The notes under the pieces are model-generated. The model made no database searches. It saw nothing but the letters and a program-made list of their open reading frames with translations, and had not been told where the DNA came from. This document shows positions 11,561-17,299 of a DNA stretch of 26,741 nt, piece by piece. Numbering within the stretch: the first letter of the stretch is position 1; each line of letters opens with the position of its first letter. Origin of the DNA: a virus; the IMG/VR virus record IMGVR_UViG_3300025687_000270, positions 1 to 26,741 of that record. One strand, written 5' to 3'. Position numbers and translations under genes: made by a program.

Positions 11561-11594
11561 GTCTATATAAAAGATGTCACAAAGGAGTAATAAG

Positions 11595-12068
11595 GTGATA
11601 AATGTACCATTCAATCGTTGGCTAGGATTCATGTTTTTGAACTTAGTAGGGCTAGGAATTCTTTATTCGCATGGAGTCTTTGGTCTTATCTTAGCCGCAG
11701 ATATTACCTTTCTTTCATGGATAATTATGTTAGTTTATCTACTCACTTCTTTAAGTATTGGAAGAAAGACTTATAATTATTCTTTTGGAAAATTGAAAGG
11801 TATTCCTATGAATACTAATGTTCAATGGTTTGTGAGGGATGAATTGGCTAATGTCGGTTTGATTGGAACTATCATAGGTCTTATGCTTATTTTAGGACCA
11901 GCTTTTGCAGCGATTGATCCTTCATTAGCTAGTAGTATCACGGAAGCTCTTTCATACATTTCTTTAGGTGTTGGTACTGCACTTTGGACTACTGTAACTG
12001 CACTTGTAAGTTCTGTCCTTCTCGGCTTTCAATTAGTCAATCTTGAAAGAGCACAAAAGAGTATGTAA
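11595..12068 (+). CDS. MotA/TolQ/ExbB-like proton channel subunit (157 aa)
   Basis: The sequence predicts four membrane segments, roughly 10-25, 29-53, 87-107 and 120-148. The third begins with NVGLIGTIIGLM, matching the GLxGTVxG signature of MotA/TolQ/ExbB channels, and the last carries GTALWTTVTALVSS, like the ALxTTxxG stretch that lines the ion path in MotA. A perfect AAAGGAG (11581-11587) lies downstream of the upstream ATG at 11574 and seven bases before GTG 11595, so GTG is the likely start. The cytoplasmic part is far smaller than in MotA. The stop overlaps the next gene (TAATG), which encodes a matching MotB/ExbD-type partner. Together they would form an ion-driven complex in the host inner membrane. 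Function in the phage is unknown. Confidence 0.78.
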   Translation: MINVPFNRWLGFMFLNLVGLGILYSHGVFGLILAADITFLSWIIMLVYLLTSLSIGRKTYNYSFGKLKGIPMNTNVQWFVRDELANVGLIGTIIGLMLILGPAFAAIDPSLASSITEALSYISLGVGTALWTTVTALVSSVLLGFQLVNLERAQKSM

Positions 12069-12664
12069 TGTCTTATCTAAATCGTAGAAGAAAGTCAAAT
12101 TCATTTACAGACTTTCTATTCAATATCCTTCTAGTCTTCTTGGTCATGTTAGCAATTCTTCTTATGCTACCTAAAAAACCACAAGAAGCGGAAGGTGATA
12201 TTCAAGTGAAAGCTGAATATCTAATTATTTTAACTTGGGATGAAGCTTCGACAGTCGATTTAGACCTTTGGATCAAATTACCATCAGATAGAATTATCTT
12301 TTTCAAACAAAAAAGTGGTCAAGGAATTCGATTAGAGCGTGATGATTTAGGCTCTATGAGTGACATGGTAGGATCAATAGTGGTTCCTATCAATGAAGAA
12401 ATAGCGACAATTCGTGGTACTAGACCTGGTGAATATATTATCAATGCACATGTTTATGGAAATTCAGGTAACCCTATGTCTGAGTTGAGAGCATCTTTGA
12501 GAATTGTACAGTTGAATCCGTATTTTGAAACTTTCAAAAGCTCTCATTTATTTACTGAAATTGGGGAAGAACATACTTTCGTTCGAATAATCATTGATGA
12601 TAAAGGAAAAGTGATCGAGACAGATACAGAATATTTTCAAAAACTAACAACAGGTGCTTTGTAA
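12068..12664 (+). CDS. MotB/TolR/ExbD-like protein with novel extracytoplasmic domain (198 aa)
   Basis: A short basic N-terminus (NRRRKS) is followed by one membrane helix at about 13-34 that begins FTDFLFNILLVFLVM. Asp15 sits where MotB, TolR and ExbD have their essential proton-carrying aspartate. The remaining ~150 residues should lie in the periplasm. They read LTWDEASTVDLDLWIKLP, then a RDDLG loop, a PGEYIINAHVYG strand and LTTGAL at the end, suggesting a beta-sandwich similar in pattern to DUF2135-like domains. No OmpA-type peptidoglycan-binding motif is seen. It is fused by one-base overlaps (TAATG) to genes on both sides. I infer a rotor/stator-like partner of the channel encoded just upstream. 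Confidence 0.75.
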   Translation: MSYLNRRRKSNSFTDFLFNILLVFLVMLAILLMLPKKPQEAEGDIQVKAEYLIILTWDEASTVDLDLWIKLPSDRIIFFKQKSGQGIRLERDDLGSMSDMVGSIVVPINEEIATIRGTRPGEYIINAHVYGNSGNPMSELRASLRIVQLNPYFETFKSSHLFTEIGEEHTFVRIIIDDKGKVIETDTEYFQKLTTGAL

Positions 12665-13098
12665 TGGAAATAATTATGATTATAGGAAGTGTTATATTCA
12701 TTACACTAATTTTAGCTTTATCACTCAAACTTCGACCAATTCTCTATACCTTTCTCGGAATTTATACAATAGGATTCTTTACTTTCTCATTAGTATTTTA
12801 TGAAAGTGTCAAAGGATATCCTACAGTTGATAGTATTCCTCTTGACAATGAACCAGTTGTAGTGTATGCTACTCATAATGATGATTATATCTTTTATTGG
12901 CTTTTAGAGAATAATCAATCAGAACCAAGAGCGTACAAAGTTCCTTTCACTGAAGAAGAAAAAAAGACCATGCACAAAGTCAATCAATCTATCAAAAAAG
13001 GTAAGAAGGTTGTTGTGACTAAAAGAAAAAATGGCGATGAAGATAGTGGAAGAATTTTCAAAGAAATTGATGTAAGTAAAATGTATAAAAAGGAGTGA
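12664..13098 (+). CDS. Two-helix membrane protein, third gene of channel operon (144 aa)
   Basis: Two hydrophobic segments, about 2-21 and 26-47, are followed by a soluble domain of about 95 residues. The domain has a PVVVYATHNDDYIFYWLLE strand pair, a conserved-looking EPRAYKVPFTEEEKK segment and a lysine-rich C-terminus. It begins at the TAATG overlap with the ExbD-like gene, so it belongs to the same operon and probably the same complex. No family recognised. The charge pattern would allow the soluble domain on either side of the membrane. Confidence 0.7.
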   Translation: MEIIMIIGSVIFITLILALSLKLRPILYTFLGIYTIGFFTFSLVFYESVKGYPTVDSIPLDNEPVVVYATHNDDYIFYWLLENNQSEPRAYKVPFTEEEKKTMHKVNQSIKKGKKVVVTKRKNGDEDSGRIFKEIDVSKMYKKE

Positions 13099-13101
13099 GT
13101 G

Positions 13102-13278
13102 ATGGTTAGCAGTGTTGATTTTATTCTTCTTAGGTCCCTTTACGAAGAATTGACACATGTAAGAATCAAAATTGATGCACAGGAAGATTTGTTTGGTCCC
13201 GCTATTCCTGAGTTACAAACTCTATATATTATCGAGGCGTACTTGTCTGGGCGTATTAAAGAATTGAAAGGTAATTAA
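13102..13278 (+). CDS. Small unknown protein (58 aa)
   Basis: A short frame starting MVSSVDFILLRSLYEELTHV has a strong AAGGAG seven bases before ATG 13102 and a TAATG overlap with the next gene, so it is very likely translated. The product appears mostly helical, with an acidic centre (DAQEDLFGPAIPELQ) and no membrane segment. No family recognised. It links the membrane operon to the SLOG gene within one transcript. Confidence 0.65.
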   Translation: MVSSVDFILLRSLYEELTHVRIKIDAQEDLFGPAIPELQTLYIIEAYLSGRIKELKGN

Positions 13279-13640
13279 TGATTTTGATTTGTACCGGTGG
13301 ACGCGACTACGATGAACATAAGATGGTCGATAGAGTTCTTACCAATGCTTTAAAGATTTATGGAGACTGGTTTGAAGTCTTCGTAGGAGATGCTAAAGGT
13401 GCCGATGAACTTGTCCGAAAATGGTGTAAAGATTATAATGTCAAATGCACCGTTTTCAAAGCACAATGGGACAAACATGGCAATCCCGCAGGACCTATCC
13501 GAAATCAAATAATGGTTGATGCAGCACTTCATATCGCTGATAAAGTTGCTGGAGTTGCCTTTCCCGGTAGTAAAGGCACTGCTCATTGTCGAGATTATAT
13601 GAAATCACAAAACATAAAGGTGCATGTTGTAAATGAATGA
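13278..13640 (+). CDS. SLOG-fold protein, DUF2493/YspA-like (120 aa)
   Basis: The family signature is clear: an N-terminal CTGGRDYDE loop, VGDAKGADELVRKWC, and AQWDKHGNPAGPIRNQIMVD, followed by AFPGSKGTAHC. DUF2493 proteins have a Rossmann-like SLOG fold that binds nucleotides or nucleotide-derived ligands such as ADP-ribose or NAD derivatives. Members are common in phages with no settled function. Here it precedes an unknown gene and a MazG-like pyrophosphohydrolase, so a role in nucleotide signalling or in countering nucleotide-based defence is possible but unproven. Start and stop overlap the neighbours. Confidence 0.87.
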   Translation: MILICTGGRDYDEHKMVDRVLTNALKIYGDWFEVFVGDAKGADELVRKWCKDYNVKCTVFKAQWDKHGNPAGPIRNQIMVDAALHIADKVAGVAFPGSKGTAHCRDYMKSQNIKVHVVNE

Positions 13641-14031: not shown

Positions 14032-14437
14032 TATTGATTATAAAGACTTTGTATACAACATTTCAAGCTCTGTAACAAAAGACTCTATTGTAAATTTGAA
14101 GGAACGGTTGAGTAATTTAGAAGAACAATGTAGAGGTTTGAACAAATTTCCTAGAGAAACAAATTTTGTTCCACATCTTTTGACAGCCGCTTTAGGGCTT
14201 TCGGGTGAGACTGGTGAATTCAACGATCATGTAAAGAAGTTGATTTTTCATAATAAAGAGTTGACAGAAGAGCGCCGTGATGCTATGATTAAGGAATTAG
14301 GTGATGTGATGTGGTACGTTATGCAGGCTTGTATTGCTCTTGATGTTGATCTATATAAAGTTGTGGAGTTGAATGAAGCGAAACTCCGTGCTAGACATAA
14401 TGGCGAAGAATTTACGGAGAATTACAAATCTTCATGA
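14021..14437 (+). CDS. MazG-like nucleotide pyrophosphohydrolase (138 aa)
   Basis: The all-alpha NTP pyrophosphatase signature is present: GLSGETGEFNDHVKK supplies Glu63 and Glu66, and KELGDVMWYVMQ supplies Glu92 and Asp95, giving the ExxE...ExxD metal site. Such enzymes cleave NTPs or dNTPs to the monophosphate; phage versions are thought to shape nucleotide pools, with dGTP and dCTP favoured in a studied cyanophage enzyme. It is a single-domain form, with ~45 extra N-terminal residues. The stop overlaps the start of the LpxH-like gene (ATGA). A promoter-like sequence lies inside this gene. Confidence 0.87.
   Translation: MLDDIDYKDFVYNISSSVTKDSIVNLKERLSNLEEQCRGLNKFPRETNFVPHLLTAALGLSGETGEFNDHVKKLIFHNKELTEERRDAMIKELGDVMWYVMQACIALDVDLYKVVELNEAKLRARHNGEEFTENYKSS
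14261..14289 (+). promoter_or_regulatory. Possible sigma-70 promoter inside the MazG gene
   Basis: TTGACA at 14261-14266 is followed after 17 bases by TATGAT at 14284-14289, with a TGC extended -10 directly before it. This scores well against the host consensus and would drive the envelope-modification genes that begin at 14434. It lies in coding sequence that also encodes the conserved MazG motif, so chance is possible. Confidence 0.4.
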
Positions 14438-15213
14438 CGCATTATAGAACTATAGCAATTAGTGATATACATTTAGGCACACGAGGATGTAAAGCGGATG
14501 CACTTTGCTCTTTTTTGAAAAACCATACTTGTGATAATCTTTTCTTGGTAGGAGATATTATCGATGGCTGGAGATTAAAAAAAAGATGGTATTTTCCTCA
14601 AAGTCATATGAATGTGATTAGAAGAGTACTAACTGCTGCTAAAAGAGATACTAAAGTATATTATATTTTAGGCAATCATGATGAAGTTTTTAGAAAGTTT
14701 TTGAATTATGATCTTACTATTGGTAGAATAAAGATATTAAATCATTATGATTATTTGGCAAAAAATGGTAAAAAATATCTTGTAGTTCATGGAGATATGT
14801 TTGATAGTCTTATGATGCCCAATAAAAAGTGGTTAATGTATACTGGTGATATTTTATATAATTTTCTTATTTTCTTGAACACGCACTTTAATAAAATTAG
14901 AGGAATTTTAGGATTACAATACTGGAGTGTCTCTAAATTTCTGAAGAGTAAAACAAAATCTGCTTTAAACTATATAAATTCTTTTGAGAAAAAAGTTTCT
15001 ATTTATTGTCATAGAAAAGGATATGATGGGGTTATATGTGGTCATATTCATACGGCGGTGATAAAAGAGCTTGATGGTATAGAATATATGAATGATGGAG
15101 ATTGGGTAGAATCTTGTTCTGCTTTAGTTGAACATGTAGACGGCAGATGGGAAATATTATTTTATGAAGGAATAGAAAATGAAGAAACTAATAACGATTG
15201 TAATTCCCAGTAA
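14434..15213 (+). CDS. LpxH-like metallophosphoesterase (259 aa)
   Basis: The protein belongs to the calcineurin-like phosphoesterases related to UDP-2,3-diacylglucosamine diphosphatase (LpxH), a lipid A synthesis enzyme. Metal ligands are visible: SDIHLG (Asp11, His13), GDIIDGW (Asp41), LGNHDE (Asn81, His82), HGD (119-121) and CGHIH (His204, His206). RWYFPQSHMNVIRRVL resembles the substrate-binding stretch in this subgroup. It overlaps a family 2 glycosyltransferase by 35 bases. Distant relatives act on other substrates, so lipid A itself is an inference. Its sequence is more AT-rich, with frequent ATA codons, than most neighbours, suggesting recent acquisition. Phage versions could alter host lipopolysaccharide. 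Confidence 0.8.
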   Translation: MTHYRTIAISDIHLGTRGCKADALCSFLKNHTCDNLFLVGDIIDGWRLKKRWYFPQSHMNVIRRVLTAAKRDTKVYYILGNHDEVFRKFLNYDLTIGRIKILNHYDYLAKNGKKYLVVHGDMFDSLMMPNKKWLMYTGDILYNFLIFLNTHFNKIRGILGLQYWSVSKFLKSKTKSALNYINSFEKKVSIYCHRKGYDGVICGHIHTAVIKELDGIEYMNDGDWVESCSALVEHVDGRWEILFYEGIENEETNNDCNSQ

Positions 15214-15886
15214 AAACGAAGAAAAATATATTGGTTATCTTCTCGATGATTTATCTAAACAAGTTGAAGATACTAGAATAATTATTGCGGATTCTAGTTC
15301 GGACAAAACAAGGTCTATAATAGAACAGAAACGACTTCAACACAATCTAAACATTGAAGTTATATCCGGTGGTCCTGTAAGCCAAGCTAAAAATAATGGA
15401 GCTAAATTAGTTACCACCCCATATATTTTATTCATTGATGCTGATGTGAGATTTTTCAATAATAAAGAAATTATTGAATCGATAAAATATTTTGAGAACC
15501 ATAATTTAGACTTGCTAGGACTATACATAAAATGTTATGATAATGATATTCGTACAAAGATAGGATTTACGATTTTCAATTTTTGTAATTGGATCATGCA
15601 ACATTTTGTGCCATTCGCAGTTGGTGCATTTATGTTAGTTCGAAAAGACAAATTTGATAAACTCGGTGGTTTCCCGTGTAAATATCAAACAAGTGAAGAT
15701 TTTTTTCTTTCAAAACAGTTTGATCCTAAAAAATTCAAACTCTTGAAATATCATTTCGGTCAAGATAGCCGTCGATTTCGAAAAATGGGTTATTTTGGCA
15801 TGGCAAAATATCTTATAAAAAATTTCTTAAATAGAAATAATGAAAAGTATTGGGATAAAATAGACTATTCTAACTATTGGGATTAA
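15179..15886 (+). CDS. Family 2 glycosyltransferase (235 aa)
   Basis: A GT-A fold enzyme that transfers a sugar from a nucleotide sugar. The N-terminus ITIVIPSKNEEKYIGYLLDD is the classic family 2 start, IIIADSSSDKT follows, and FIDADV (85-90) is the DxD metal site. TSEDFFLSKQF near the C-terminal third supplies the ED motif for the catalytic base. A hydrophobic stretch (WIMQHFVPFAVGAFMLV) may touch the membrane. An AAGGA site precedes ATG 15179 by seven bases; the long overlap with the LpxH-like gene ties the two together. The target is probably a host envelope glycan or lipid, but DNA modification cannot be excluded. Confidence 0.85.
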   Translation: MKKLITIVIPSKNEEKYIGYLLDDLSKQVEDTRIIIADSSSDKTRSIIEQKRLQHNLNIEVISGGPVSQAKNNGAKLVTTPYILFIDADVRFFNNKEIIESIKYFENHNLDLLGLYIKCYDNDIRTKIGFTIFNFCNWIMQHFVPFAVGAFMLVRKDKFDKLGGFPCKYQTSEDFFLSKQFDPKKFKLLKYHFGQDSRRFRKMGYFGMAKYLIKNFLNRNNEKYWDKIDYSNYWD

Positions 15887-15892
15887 TATAAT

Positions 15893-17299
15893 ATGCTACC
15901 AGGCTTAGAACATTCTAAAGAAGATCAAGCAAAAATCGTTAGGGCACAGAAACACGAACAAGACCTAAAGAAAAAGGTCTCGCAAGATATCTATGTTTCC
16001 TTCAGAAATGAAAGTGATATCAATGATTTTGCTAAAATTATTGGTGTTTCAATCACTCCGAAGACTAAGATTATTGACTTTCCTGTCAAAAATCTAGTTT
16101 CTGGTGAAGCATCTTCAACTATCTTTTCGAAGACTGAAAAGAAACCTCGGAAGAAAAAGTGGCAAAAATTTTGGCAAGGTATGCCAGAATTCGTTCAAGA
16201 GAATAATTCACCTTTCTTTCAATTGAAAATTCGTTTGCGAGATTCTAAAGACTTAGCGCTATTTCGTGATACTGTTGGTCAGAAACATATCAATGAGAAG
16301 ACTAAATCGATTTGGCATCCTAAACTAGATGTTGACGCGAACTATAAGAAGCGATGGGTTATTACAGATTTCGAGAATGAGAAGATGCCAAAATATCCTC
16401 TTTACATCGTGTCTAAAGGTCGATATGAAAGAAATATTCGAGCAACGGCAAATTCTCTAGAAAGAATGCGAGTCCCTTTCTTCATGGTGGTTGAAGAACA
16501 TGAAGTTGAAAAATATAAAGAAACCGCAGATCCTCGATATTGTACTGTAATTACTCTTGACAATCGGTATAAAGAAGAGTATGATACATGTGATAATGAA
16601 GGCTATACTAATCCAAGAGTAGGACCTGGTGCTGCTAGAAACTTCGCATGGGATCATGCCAAAAATAACGGTCATACCAGATACTGGGTTTTTGATGATA
16701 ACATTCATGATTTCTATCGTCTCCATGAAAATCAAAGAATTCGTGTAGAGACTGGGAGTTTCTTTCGCGCCTGCGAAGATTTTATAGATAGATATAAAAA
16801 CATTCCTGTCTCTGGATTACAATACCGATTTTTCATTGCTCCAAACAGTGAGTATCCTCCATATGTAATGAATACTCGTATCTATTCGGCACTTCTAATC
16901 GATACTAGTATGGAACAATATAAGTGGCGAGGAAGATACAATGAAGATACTGATCTTTCCTTGAGAGTCCTCAAAGATGGATTATGCACCTGCCAATTCA
17001 ACTTTTTTCTACAGGGAAAAGCTGCTACTCAAACCACAAAGGGTGGCAATACCGACGAATTCTATGCAGTCGAAGATCAAGAAGATGAAGTCCTTCATGG
17101 CACCAGTAACAAGTCCGATATGCTAATAACTATGGGACATGAAGATGTTTCTAGAAATGTCTGGAAATATGGCAGATGGCACCATTATGTTGATTATTTA
17201 CCATTCAAAGACAATCAACCAATCTTGAAAGACAATATTGACATTCCAGAAGGGATAGATAACTATGGTGTAAGTTTTATTGGTAATTATGGAGATTGA
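15893..17299 (+). CDS. TET-associated glycosyltransferase-like protein with tandem N-terminal domains (468 aa)
   Basis: Residues about 165-400 match the pattern of the TAGT (TET-associated glycosyltransferase) family described for phage DNA base hypermodification: YPLYIVSKGRYERNIRATA, VGPGAARNFAWDHA, YWVFDDNI (DDN at 268-270), YNEDTDLSLRVLKDG and the closing KGGNTDEFY. The first 150 residues hold two copies of a small domain, at about 33-64 and 108-143, each with a beta strand, an acidic D-x-x-x-F helix and a KTK-x-I-x-x-P ending (KTKIIDFP and KTKSIWHP). A similar KTKSIW-P segment occurs in other phage DNA-linked proteins. I infer it glycosylates a modified base in phage DNA. No TET/JBP or hydroxymethylase gene is visible in this window to supply the acceptor. 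Confidence 0.72.
   Translation: MLPGLEHSKEDQAKIVRAQKHEQDLKKKVSQDIYVSFRNESDINDFAKIIGVSITPKTKIIDFPVKNLVSGEASSTIFSKTEKKPRKKKWQKFWQGMPEFVQENNSPFFQLKIRLRDSKDLALFRDTVGQKHINEKTKSIWHPKLDVDANYKKRWVITDFENEKMPKYPLYIVSKGRYERNIRATANSLERMRVPFFMVVEEHEVEKYKETADPRYCTVITLDNRYKEEYDTCDNEGYTNPRVGPGAARNFAWDHAKNNGHTRYWVFDDNIHDFYRLHENQRIRVETGSFFRACEDFIDRYKNIPVSGLQYRFFIAPNSEYPPYVMNTRIYSALLIDTSMEQYKWRGRYNEDTDLSLRVLKDGLCTCQFNFFLQGKAATQTTKGGNTDEFYAVEDQEDEVLHGTSNKSDMLITMGHEDVSRNVWKYGRWHHYVDYLPFKDNQPILKDNIDIPEGIDNYGVSFIGNYGD

Follow-up and report, generated by a model that had tools for sequence, protein, structure and literature searches.

A conserved three-gene cassette of phages and Proteobacteria predicted to encode a proton-coupled inner-membrane complex

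The viral DNA analysed here, a stretch of 26,741 nucleotides which is called the window below, carries three overlapping genes, A, B and C, whose products probably form a proton-coupled complex in the inner membrane, of the MotA/TolQ/ExbB type and with its output in the periplasm. The known 5:2 proton motors are few, comprising the flagellar stators, the Tol, Ton and gliding systems and Zorya. If our reading is correct, the trio represents an unnamed branch of these motors with two new periplasmic partners. Hundreds of contigs from phages carry it, as do about one eighth of the alpha- and gammaproteobacterial genomes sampled, and it would thus be an unrecognised envelope machine common to phages and bacteria. 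The trio makes it testable whether phages run proton-coupled machines of their own, and rhizobial phages including 16-3 offer laboratory systems for this purpose.

The gene trio and its distribution

The window comes from a T4-like phage. With the PHROGs profiles gp21, gp22 and gp23 (head protease, scaffold and major head protein), a UvsW-like helicase, gp47, gp46 and the clamp loader were recognised. The trio is situated directly after gp47-gp46, and its features are the following.

11574..12068, + strand: gene A, open reading frame of 164 aa, minimal four-helix pore protein of the MotA/TolQ/ExbB type
11868..11870, + strand: codon of Thr99 of A, aligned with T145 of TolQ and T148 of ExbB; T in 106 of 112 family members
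11991..11993, + strand: codon of Thr140 of A, aligned with T178 of TolQ and T181 of ExbB; T in 102 and S in 9 of 112 family members
12068..12664, + strand: gene B, open reading frame of 198 aa, single-helix transmembrane protein with a predicted periplasmic TerD-like domain
12110..12112, + strand: codon GAC of Asp15 of B, in the sole transmembrane helix; candidate proton site
12215..12625, + strand: residues 50-186 of B, predicted periplasmic beta sandwich, TerD-like
12664..13098, + strand: gene C, open reading frame of 144 aa, transmembrane hairpin and predicted periplasmic OB-like domain

The open reading frame calls confirm the TAATG overlaps at the A/B and B/C junctions that had been described in an earlier note on this DNA. 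An in-frame GTG at 11595, with AAAGGAG just 5' of it, may be the true start of A, giving a protein of 157 aa; the residue numbers of A used here are counted from 11574. From hydropathy one helix is predicted for B and two for C. Of the four helices the note had assigned to A, three are strong and the first is weaker.

To assess the linkage of the three genes two samples were used. A search of IMG/VR for B, starting from one motif, returned 112 relatives, and 99 of these loci were examined. All 99 contain A and 96 contain C, the other three ending at a contig edge. An independent sample seeded with A comprised 406 relatives, and among the 80 loci examined B was present in 78 and the complete trio in 71. 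Seven of the nine loci without C stop at a contig edge; only L331 and L340 truly lack the gene, and in both A and B are followed by a different gene and by gp25/gp6-like baseplate genes. The trio is almost inseparable and its co-inheritance near-obligate, in agreement with the earlier expectation that the three genes are kept together in relatives. That they are chance open reading frames is ruled out by this synteny and by the invariant residues described below.

Among phage records 27 carry B, and all of these phages have Rhizobium or Sinorhizobium hosts. Their genomes are of several unrelated types: Pootjesviridae of about 155 kb, phages of 68 kb and 16-3-like temperate phages of 60 kb. The trio is found in lytic and temperate phages alike, and in the classical temperate phage 16-3 it corresponds to p038, p040 and p042. 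A tblastn search of the phage records with a single A sequence gave no match although A adjoins every B, because A diverges too fast for single-sequence searches. In the eight rhizobial phage records read all genes of the trio are annotated as hypothetical, and neither B nor C is annotated in Pfam, PHROGs or NCBIfam. The trio was not described in the open-access literature found for phage-encoded ExbB/TolQ, for TerD together with ExbD and for phage 16-3. A 2025 survey of MotAB relatives deals with generic ion transporters carrying assorted domains of unknown function, and its passages on these relatives describe neither the trio nor any phage copy (PMC12505986).

The earlier note spoke of a phage-encoded operon, but the trio is not restricted to phages; it is also chromosomal in Alpha- and Gammaproteobacteria. 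In bacterial genome collections B was found on 33 contigs, together with A on all of them and with C on all but one cut contig, and the synteny recurs in about 65 further bacterial loci. Among sampled genomes B was detected in 41 of 289 from Alphaproteobacteria (35 of them at E below 1e-30) and in 28 of 229 from Gammaproteobacteria, and A and C almost always accompany it. In the sampled genomes from the classes of one Bacteroidota and one Chloroflexota genome no trio was detected beyond the phage-like seed loci. A gammaproteobacterial clade carries the trio between the fumarase and aconitase genes on long chromosomal contigs, and it is also situated on a Filomicrobium chromosome. A fourth gene in some bacterial loci codes for a lipoprotein-like, DUF3108-like protein. 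In a quick unrooted tree of B the chromosomal copies with a long A group together in one branch that lies within the diversity of the phage sequences (SH-aLRT 98). The copies in bacteria suggest an older role outside phages, perhaps connected with calcium-type chemistry in the periplasm.

The pore protein and its two partners

The family of A was determined by profile comparisons. PF01618 matches 55 of 60 diverse relatives of A with a best E of 2.1e-10, whereas the window copy searched alone gives E 0.0016 and 18.6 bits, below the curated cut-off of 22.9 bits. When the profile of the A family was run against all PDB sequences, the first 22 matches were all MotA, PomA, TolQ, ExbB or ZorA, the best-scoring solved structure being MotA (8gqy). 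With hhalign the family aligned with E. coli TolQ/ExbB over two pore helices (E 8.8e-6). The motifs GLIGTIIG and TALWTT, already noticed earlier, are both present in A. Thr99 and Thr140 align with the channel threonines T145 and T178 of TolQ and T148 and T181 of ExbB; at position 140 T or S is found in 111 of 112 members. Judged by these alignments, A belongs to the MotA/TolQ/ExbB family, and its earlier reading as MotA/TolQ-like is borne out. The cytoplasmic loop between the helix pairs comprises only about 30 aa in the window copy and in the phage copies, which are about 140-180 aa long. Bacterial A proteins mostly have 205-307 residues, with a cytoplasmic part that is roughly 60-100 aa longer. 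The short loop is a difference in size; the pore motif is retained.

For B an AlphaFold2 single-chain model was obtained from a 54-row alignment (mean pLDDT 85.9). It shows a helix at residues 10-33, a linker at residues 34-49 and a beta sandwich at residues 50-186. The aspartate at position 15, which had been placed in the only membrane helix, indeed lies there; 114 of 115 aligned relatives share it, and the remaining one has a gap. The beta-type domain predicted to follow the helix is likewise seen in the model. The positions W57, D64, D66, L89, D92, D93, G95 and E111 are identical in 115 of 115 sequences, and thus the head contains five invariant acidic residues: D64, D66, D92, D93 and E111.

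A search of Pfam with B gave no match, including the ExbD/TolR fold and the OmpA-like peptidoglycan-binding domain. This agrees with the earlier remark that B lacks a peptidoglycan-binding motif; of the two proteins proposed for a profile check, A matches MotA/ExbB and B has no Pfam match. Sub-threshold Pfam matches to DUF2135, PPC and Y_Y_Y were scattered, and these were rejected as families of B. In a viral structure library the B model found no named close relative. Comparison of the model with solved structures by VIA-align yielded the TerD-family chains 3ibz (Z 11.9), 2qng (Z 10.3) and 2qz7 (Z 10.0); apart from these, two chains of larger assemblies scored near Z 10 and all others 6.5 or less. 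Foldseek also matched the model to 2qng (E 1.2e-4). The fold match spans residues ~41-198 of B and nearly the full length of TerD, and the motif order W...DxD...DD...E in B resembles W...DLD...GDN...DDE in TerD. On the level of sequence PF02342 (TerD) matched none of 61 B members, and hhalign of the B family against 11 TerD proteins gave no match. Because of this lack of sequence similarity the likeness is claimed for the fold only. The head of B is, by the model, predicted to have a TerD fold. The domain had been called novel, which in view of this predicted fold holds only in part. TerD proteins bind calcium. The conservation of D64, D66, D92, D93 and E111 suggests that these residues form a putative metal site in the head, and by analogy the order of acidic motifs shared by B and TerD is a suggestion of calcium-type chemistry.

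A single-sequence scan with C returned only C itself. Hydropathy and model agree with the earlier description of C as two membrane helices and a soluble domain. The single-chain model (mean pLDDT 81) shows a helical hairpin and a beta-beta-beta-alpha-beta-beta domain, and its fold matches are mostly OB folds (eIF5A, HIN, SSB-like) with Z up to 6.3, too low to assign C to any OB family. The short loop between the helices carries a net positive charge in 32 of 40 relatives. From the positive-inside rule an N-out/C-out topology follows, so that the C-terminus of C is predicted to be in the periplasm. In at least eight distinct contigs of a marine clade C continues directly into a complete phage GH24 lysozyme (PF00959, E 8.5e-49), positioned at its C-terminal end and with the Glu-Asp-Thr catalytic triad intact. 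These fusions, which are 56-94% identical to each other, also place the end of C in the periplasm. B adjoins in these contigs, and so does A wherever the contig reaches. Most C proteins, including the window copy, are without lysozyme. At least in the marine clade the fusions support a link of the trio to the cell wall.

Proposed mechanism and possible roles

In the proton-coupled complex that we propose, five A subunits would surround two B helices, and protonation of Asp15 of B against the threonines of A would drive either rotation or a cycle of conformational changes. The head of B, probably metal-binding, would be held near the membrane by its short linker and may work there with or on C. 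As this linker (residues 34-49) cannot span the distance to the outer membrane, the complex would act near the inner membrane or the wall, with its output at the interface of cell wall and inner membrane and not at the outer membrane. That this output is in the periplasm is inferred from the topology and from the C-lysozyme fusions. Since A is without a large cytoplasmic domain, it could also form a simple channel or sensor instead of a motor. A further reading, which we regard as doubtful, is that a proton-driven motor controls wall work (a hydrolase or wall integrity) via the metal-binding TerD-like head and C. If true, phages would possess a machine of a new class for controlling the envelope, one that bacterial chromosomes encode as well.

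The time of expression bears on the role of the trio in the window phage. The T4-type late promoter sequence TATAAATA is found 33-40 bases before the open reading frames at 2632, 3798 and 5516, the first two of which are head genes, and is not found between 5485 and 22235 of the window. With 3.1 matches expected in the window, the six observed are not strong evidence alone. The lack of TATAAATA near the trio and the setting among replication genes make early or middle expression likelier, and on these sequence features the trio of the window phage is predicted to be expressed probably early or middle. In the Pootjesviridae the trio is situated near genes for gyrase, late sigma factor, gp46/47 and clamp.

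Further genes lie 3' of the trio in the window. A YspA-like SLOG-family protein (PF10686) is encoded at 13278-13640, and a calcineurin-type phosphoesterase similar to LpxH/UDP-diacylglucosamine hydrolases, with a family-2 glycosyltransferase after it, at 14434-15886. The latter pair are possible envelope or LPS modification genes. A TET-associated glycosyltransferase (PF20691, E 1e-41) at 15893-17299 suggests that the window phage has hypermodified, glycosylated DNA.

Recurrent neighbours of the trio in phages are ClpP-like proteases (25 loci), ClpS, Hsp20, DegP-like trypsin peptidases and the SbmA/BacA transporters described below; near-identical contigs inflate all the locus counts given for these neighbours. 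Genes for ClpP-like proteases lie just upstream of A in L014 (569-1150), L016, L017, L019, L061 (3704-4390) and L077 (3048-4514); the proteins of L061 and L077 have apparent export signals, which is unusual for ClpP. A DegP-like trypsin peptidase gene is found immediately or nearly immediately upstream of A in the 16-3-type rhizobial phages (L005, L004, L006 and L007), the one at 3175-4074 of L005 being p036 of 16-3. Directly 3' of C an SbmA/BacA peptide transporter (PF05992, E 4e-140) is encoded in 13 loci, among them L022 (6270-7241), L039, L042, L045 and L080. Membrane or periplasmic proteins are thus frequent neighbours in phages (SbmA/BacA, DegP-like, exported ClpP-like). Neighbours such as ClpP, ClpS and the replication genes may represent ordinary gene order.

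For the window phage we tentatively favour a use of the trio in stabilising or remodelling the infected cell's envelope, with resistance to a second phage as part of it; we consider this role possible. We weighed four alternatives. First, an early inner-membrane complex could serve superinfection exclusion by a Zorya-like logic, blocking DNA entry or de-energising the membrane when a second phage arrives. The early or middle position, the inner-membrane location, the presence in temperate 16-3-type as well as lytic phages and the appearance of ZorA among the nearest annotated relatives of A are in line with it. However, the trio has neither a ZorA-type tail nor the peptidoglycan-binding domain of ZorB, and the bacterial loci read adjoin fumarase/aconitase genes or PQQ dehydrogenases, not defence islands, so that we consider this role rather unlikely.

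Second, the complex could control lysis by sensing or spending the proton motive force while holding a wall hydrolase inactive or presenting it to the wall. The hydrolase would be the lysozyme fused to C or a separate endolysin bound by C, and would be freed on de-energisation of the membrane, analogous to SAR endolysins. The fusions to complete lysozymes with an intact triad favour a role in wall lysis in one clade, and the predicted periplasmic C-terminus of C as well as a cell-wall hydrolase (PF07486) near the trio in some loci fit this possibility. Most C proteins lack a lysozyme, though, the copies of the window and of the Pootjesviridae are situated beside the genes named above and not, in the window, behind a T4-type late promoter, and the chromosomal copies are stable residents of bacteria. 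The early or middle setting without a canonical late promoter nearby suggests that the trio is not the lysis effector, and from the gene position protection or remodelling of the envelope is somewhat likelier than lysis control, which we judge unlikely.

Third, the phage trio could be a copy of a proteobacterial envelope system whose native role is in periplasmic calcium- or lanthanide-dependent quinoprotein metabolism, and which phages would use to keep the host energised. Consistent with this, the chromosomal clade is a single branch of the B tree, the invariant acidic residues lie on a fold of the calcium-binding TerD type, and PQQ-dependent dehydrogenases are found beside 9 of 53 bacterial loci. 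In alphaproteobacterial genomes the trio and PQQ dehydrogenases co-occur (18 of 35 against 46 of 254 genomes, odds ratio 4.8, P 4e-5), a statistic that ignores kinship. However, about half of the trio-bearing genomes are without a strong PQQ dehydrogenase, the gammaproteobacterial branch occupies an unrelated place between fumarase and aconitase, and no PQQ dehydrogenase genes were found near the trio in phage loci. We therefore regard an auxiliary host function as distinctly unlikely. The chromosomal loci beside PQQ-dependent alcohol dehydrogenases are L132, L109, L111, L130, L150-L152, L155 and L177; among the PQQ-adjoining loci those of Granulosicoccaceae also have SRPBCC and beta-propeller genes near the trio.

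Fourth, A and B could enter mixed complexes with the host subunits TolQ/ExbB or TolR/ExbD and so poison or redirect these, in line with the pore helices and threonines that A has in common with TolQ/ExbB. We consider this highly improbable: A and B always occur together and nearly always with C, which suggests a self-sufficient complex, the head of B is unrelated to ExbD/TolR, and the alignment of A with TolQ covers the two pore helices only. The earlier note also raised mimicry or poisoning of Tol, Ton or Zorya in the host, for which we found no evidence.

Comparison with known systems

The trio shares features with each of the known motors and differs from each of them. Like TolQ and ExbB, A has the pore helices with the GLxGTxxG and TALxTT motifs and both channel threonines, but TolQ and ExbB have three transmembrane helices, whereas A has four in about 150-165 aa. 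B resembles TolR and ExbD in its one N-terminal transmembrane helix with an aspartate about six residues into the helix; the ExbD/TolR fold is absent from its head, which is TerD-like instead. The third subunit, C, with its transmembrane hairpin and OB-like head, also differs from Tol and Ton, and no TolA/TonB-type spacer was recognised among the recurrent neighbours of the trio.

With MotA and PomA the protein A has the four transmembrane helices in common, but their torque-generating cytoplasmic domain is missing, as is the OmpA-like peptidoglycan-binding domain of MotB and PomB in B. Several ZorA models gave low-scoring MotA-domain matches to A. However, the long cytoplasmic tail of ZorA is missing in A and the peptidoglycan-binding head of ZorB is missing in B, which rules out membership in Zorya; moreover, Zorya is an anti-phage defence, whereas the trio is carried by phages themselves. 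By the differences described above the trio would also lie outside the Tol and Ton systems.

Two further likenesses concern single domains. The phage GH24 lysozyme is fused to C only in the marine clade and is absent from C of the window. The head of B, although membrane-anchored, periplasmic and without detectable sequence homology to TerD, is like TerD in its predicted fold and in the order of its motifs.
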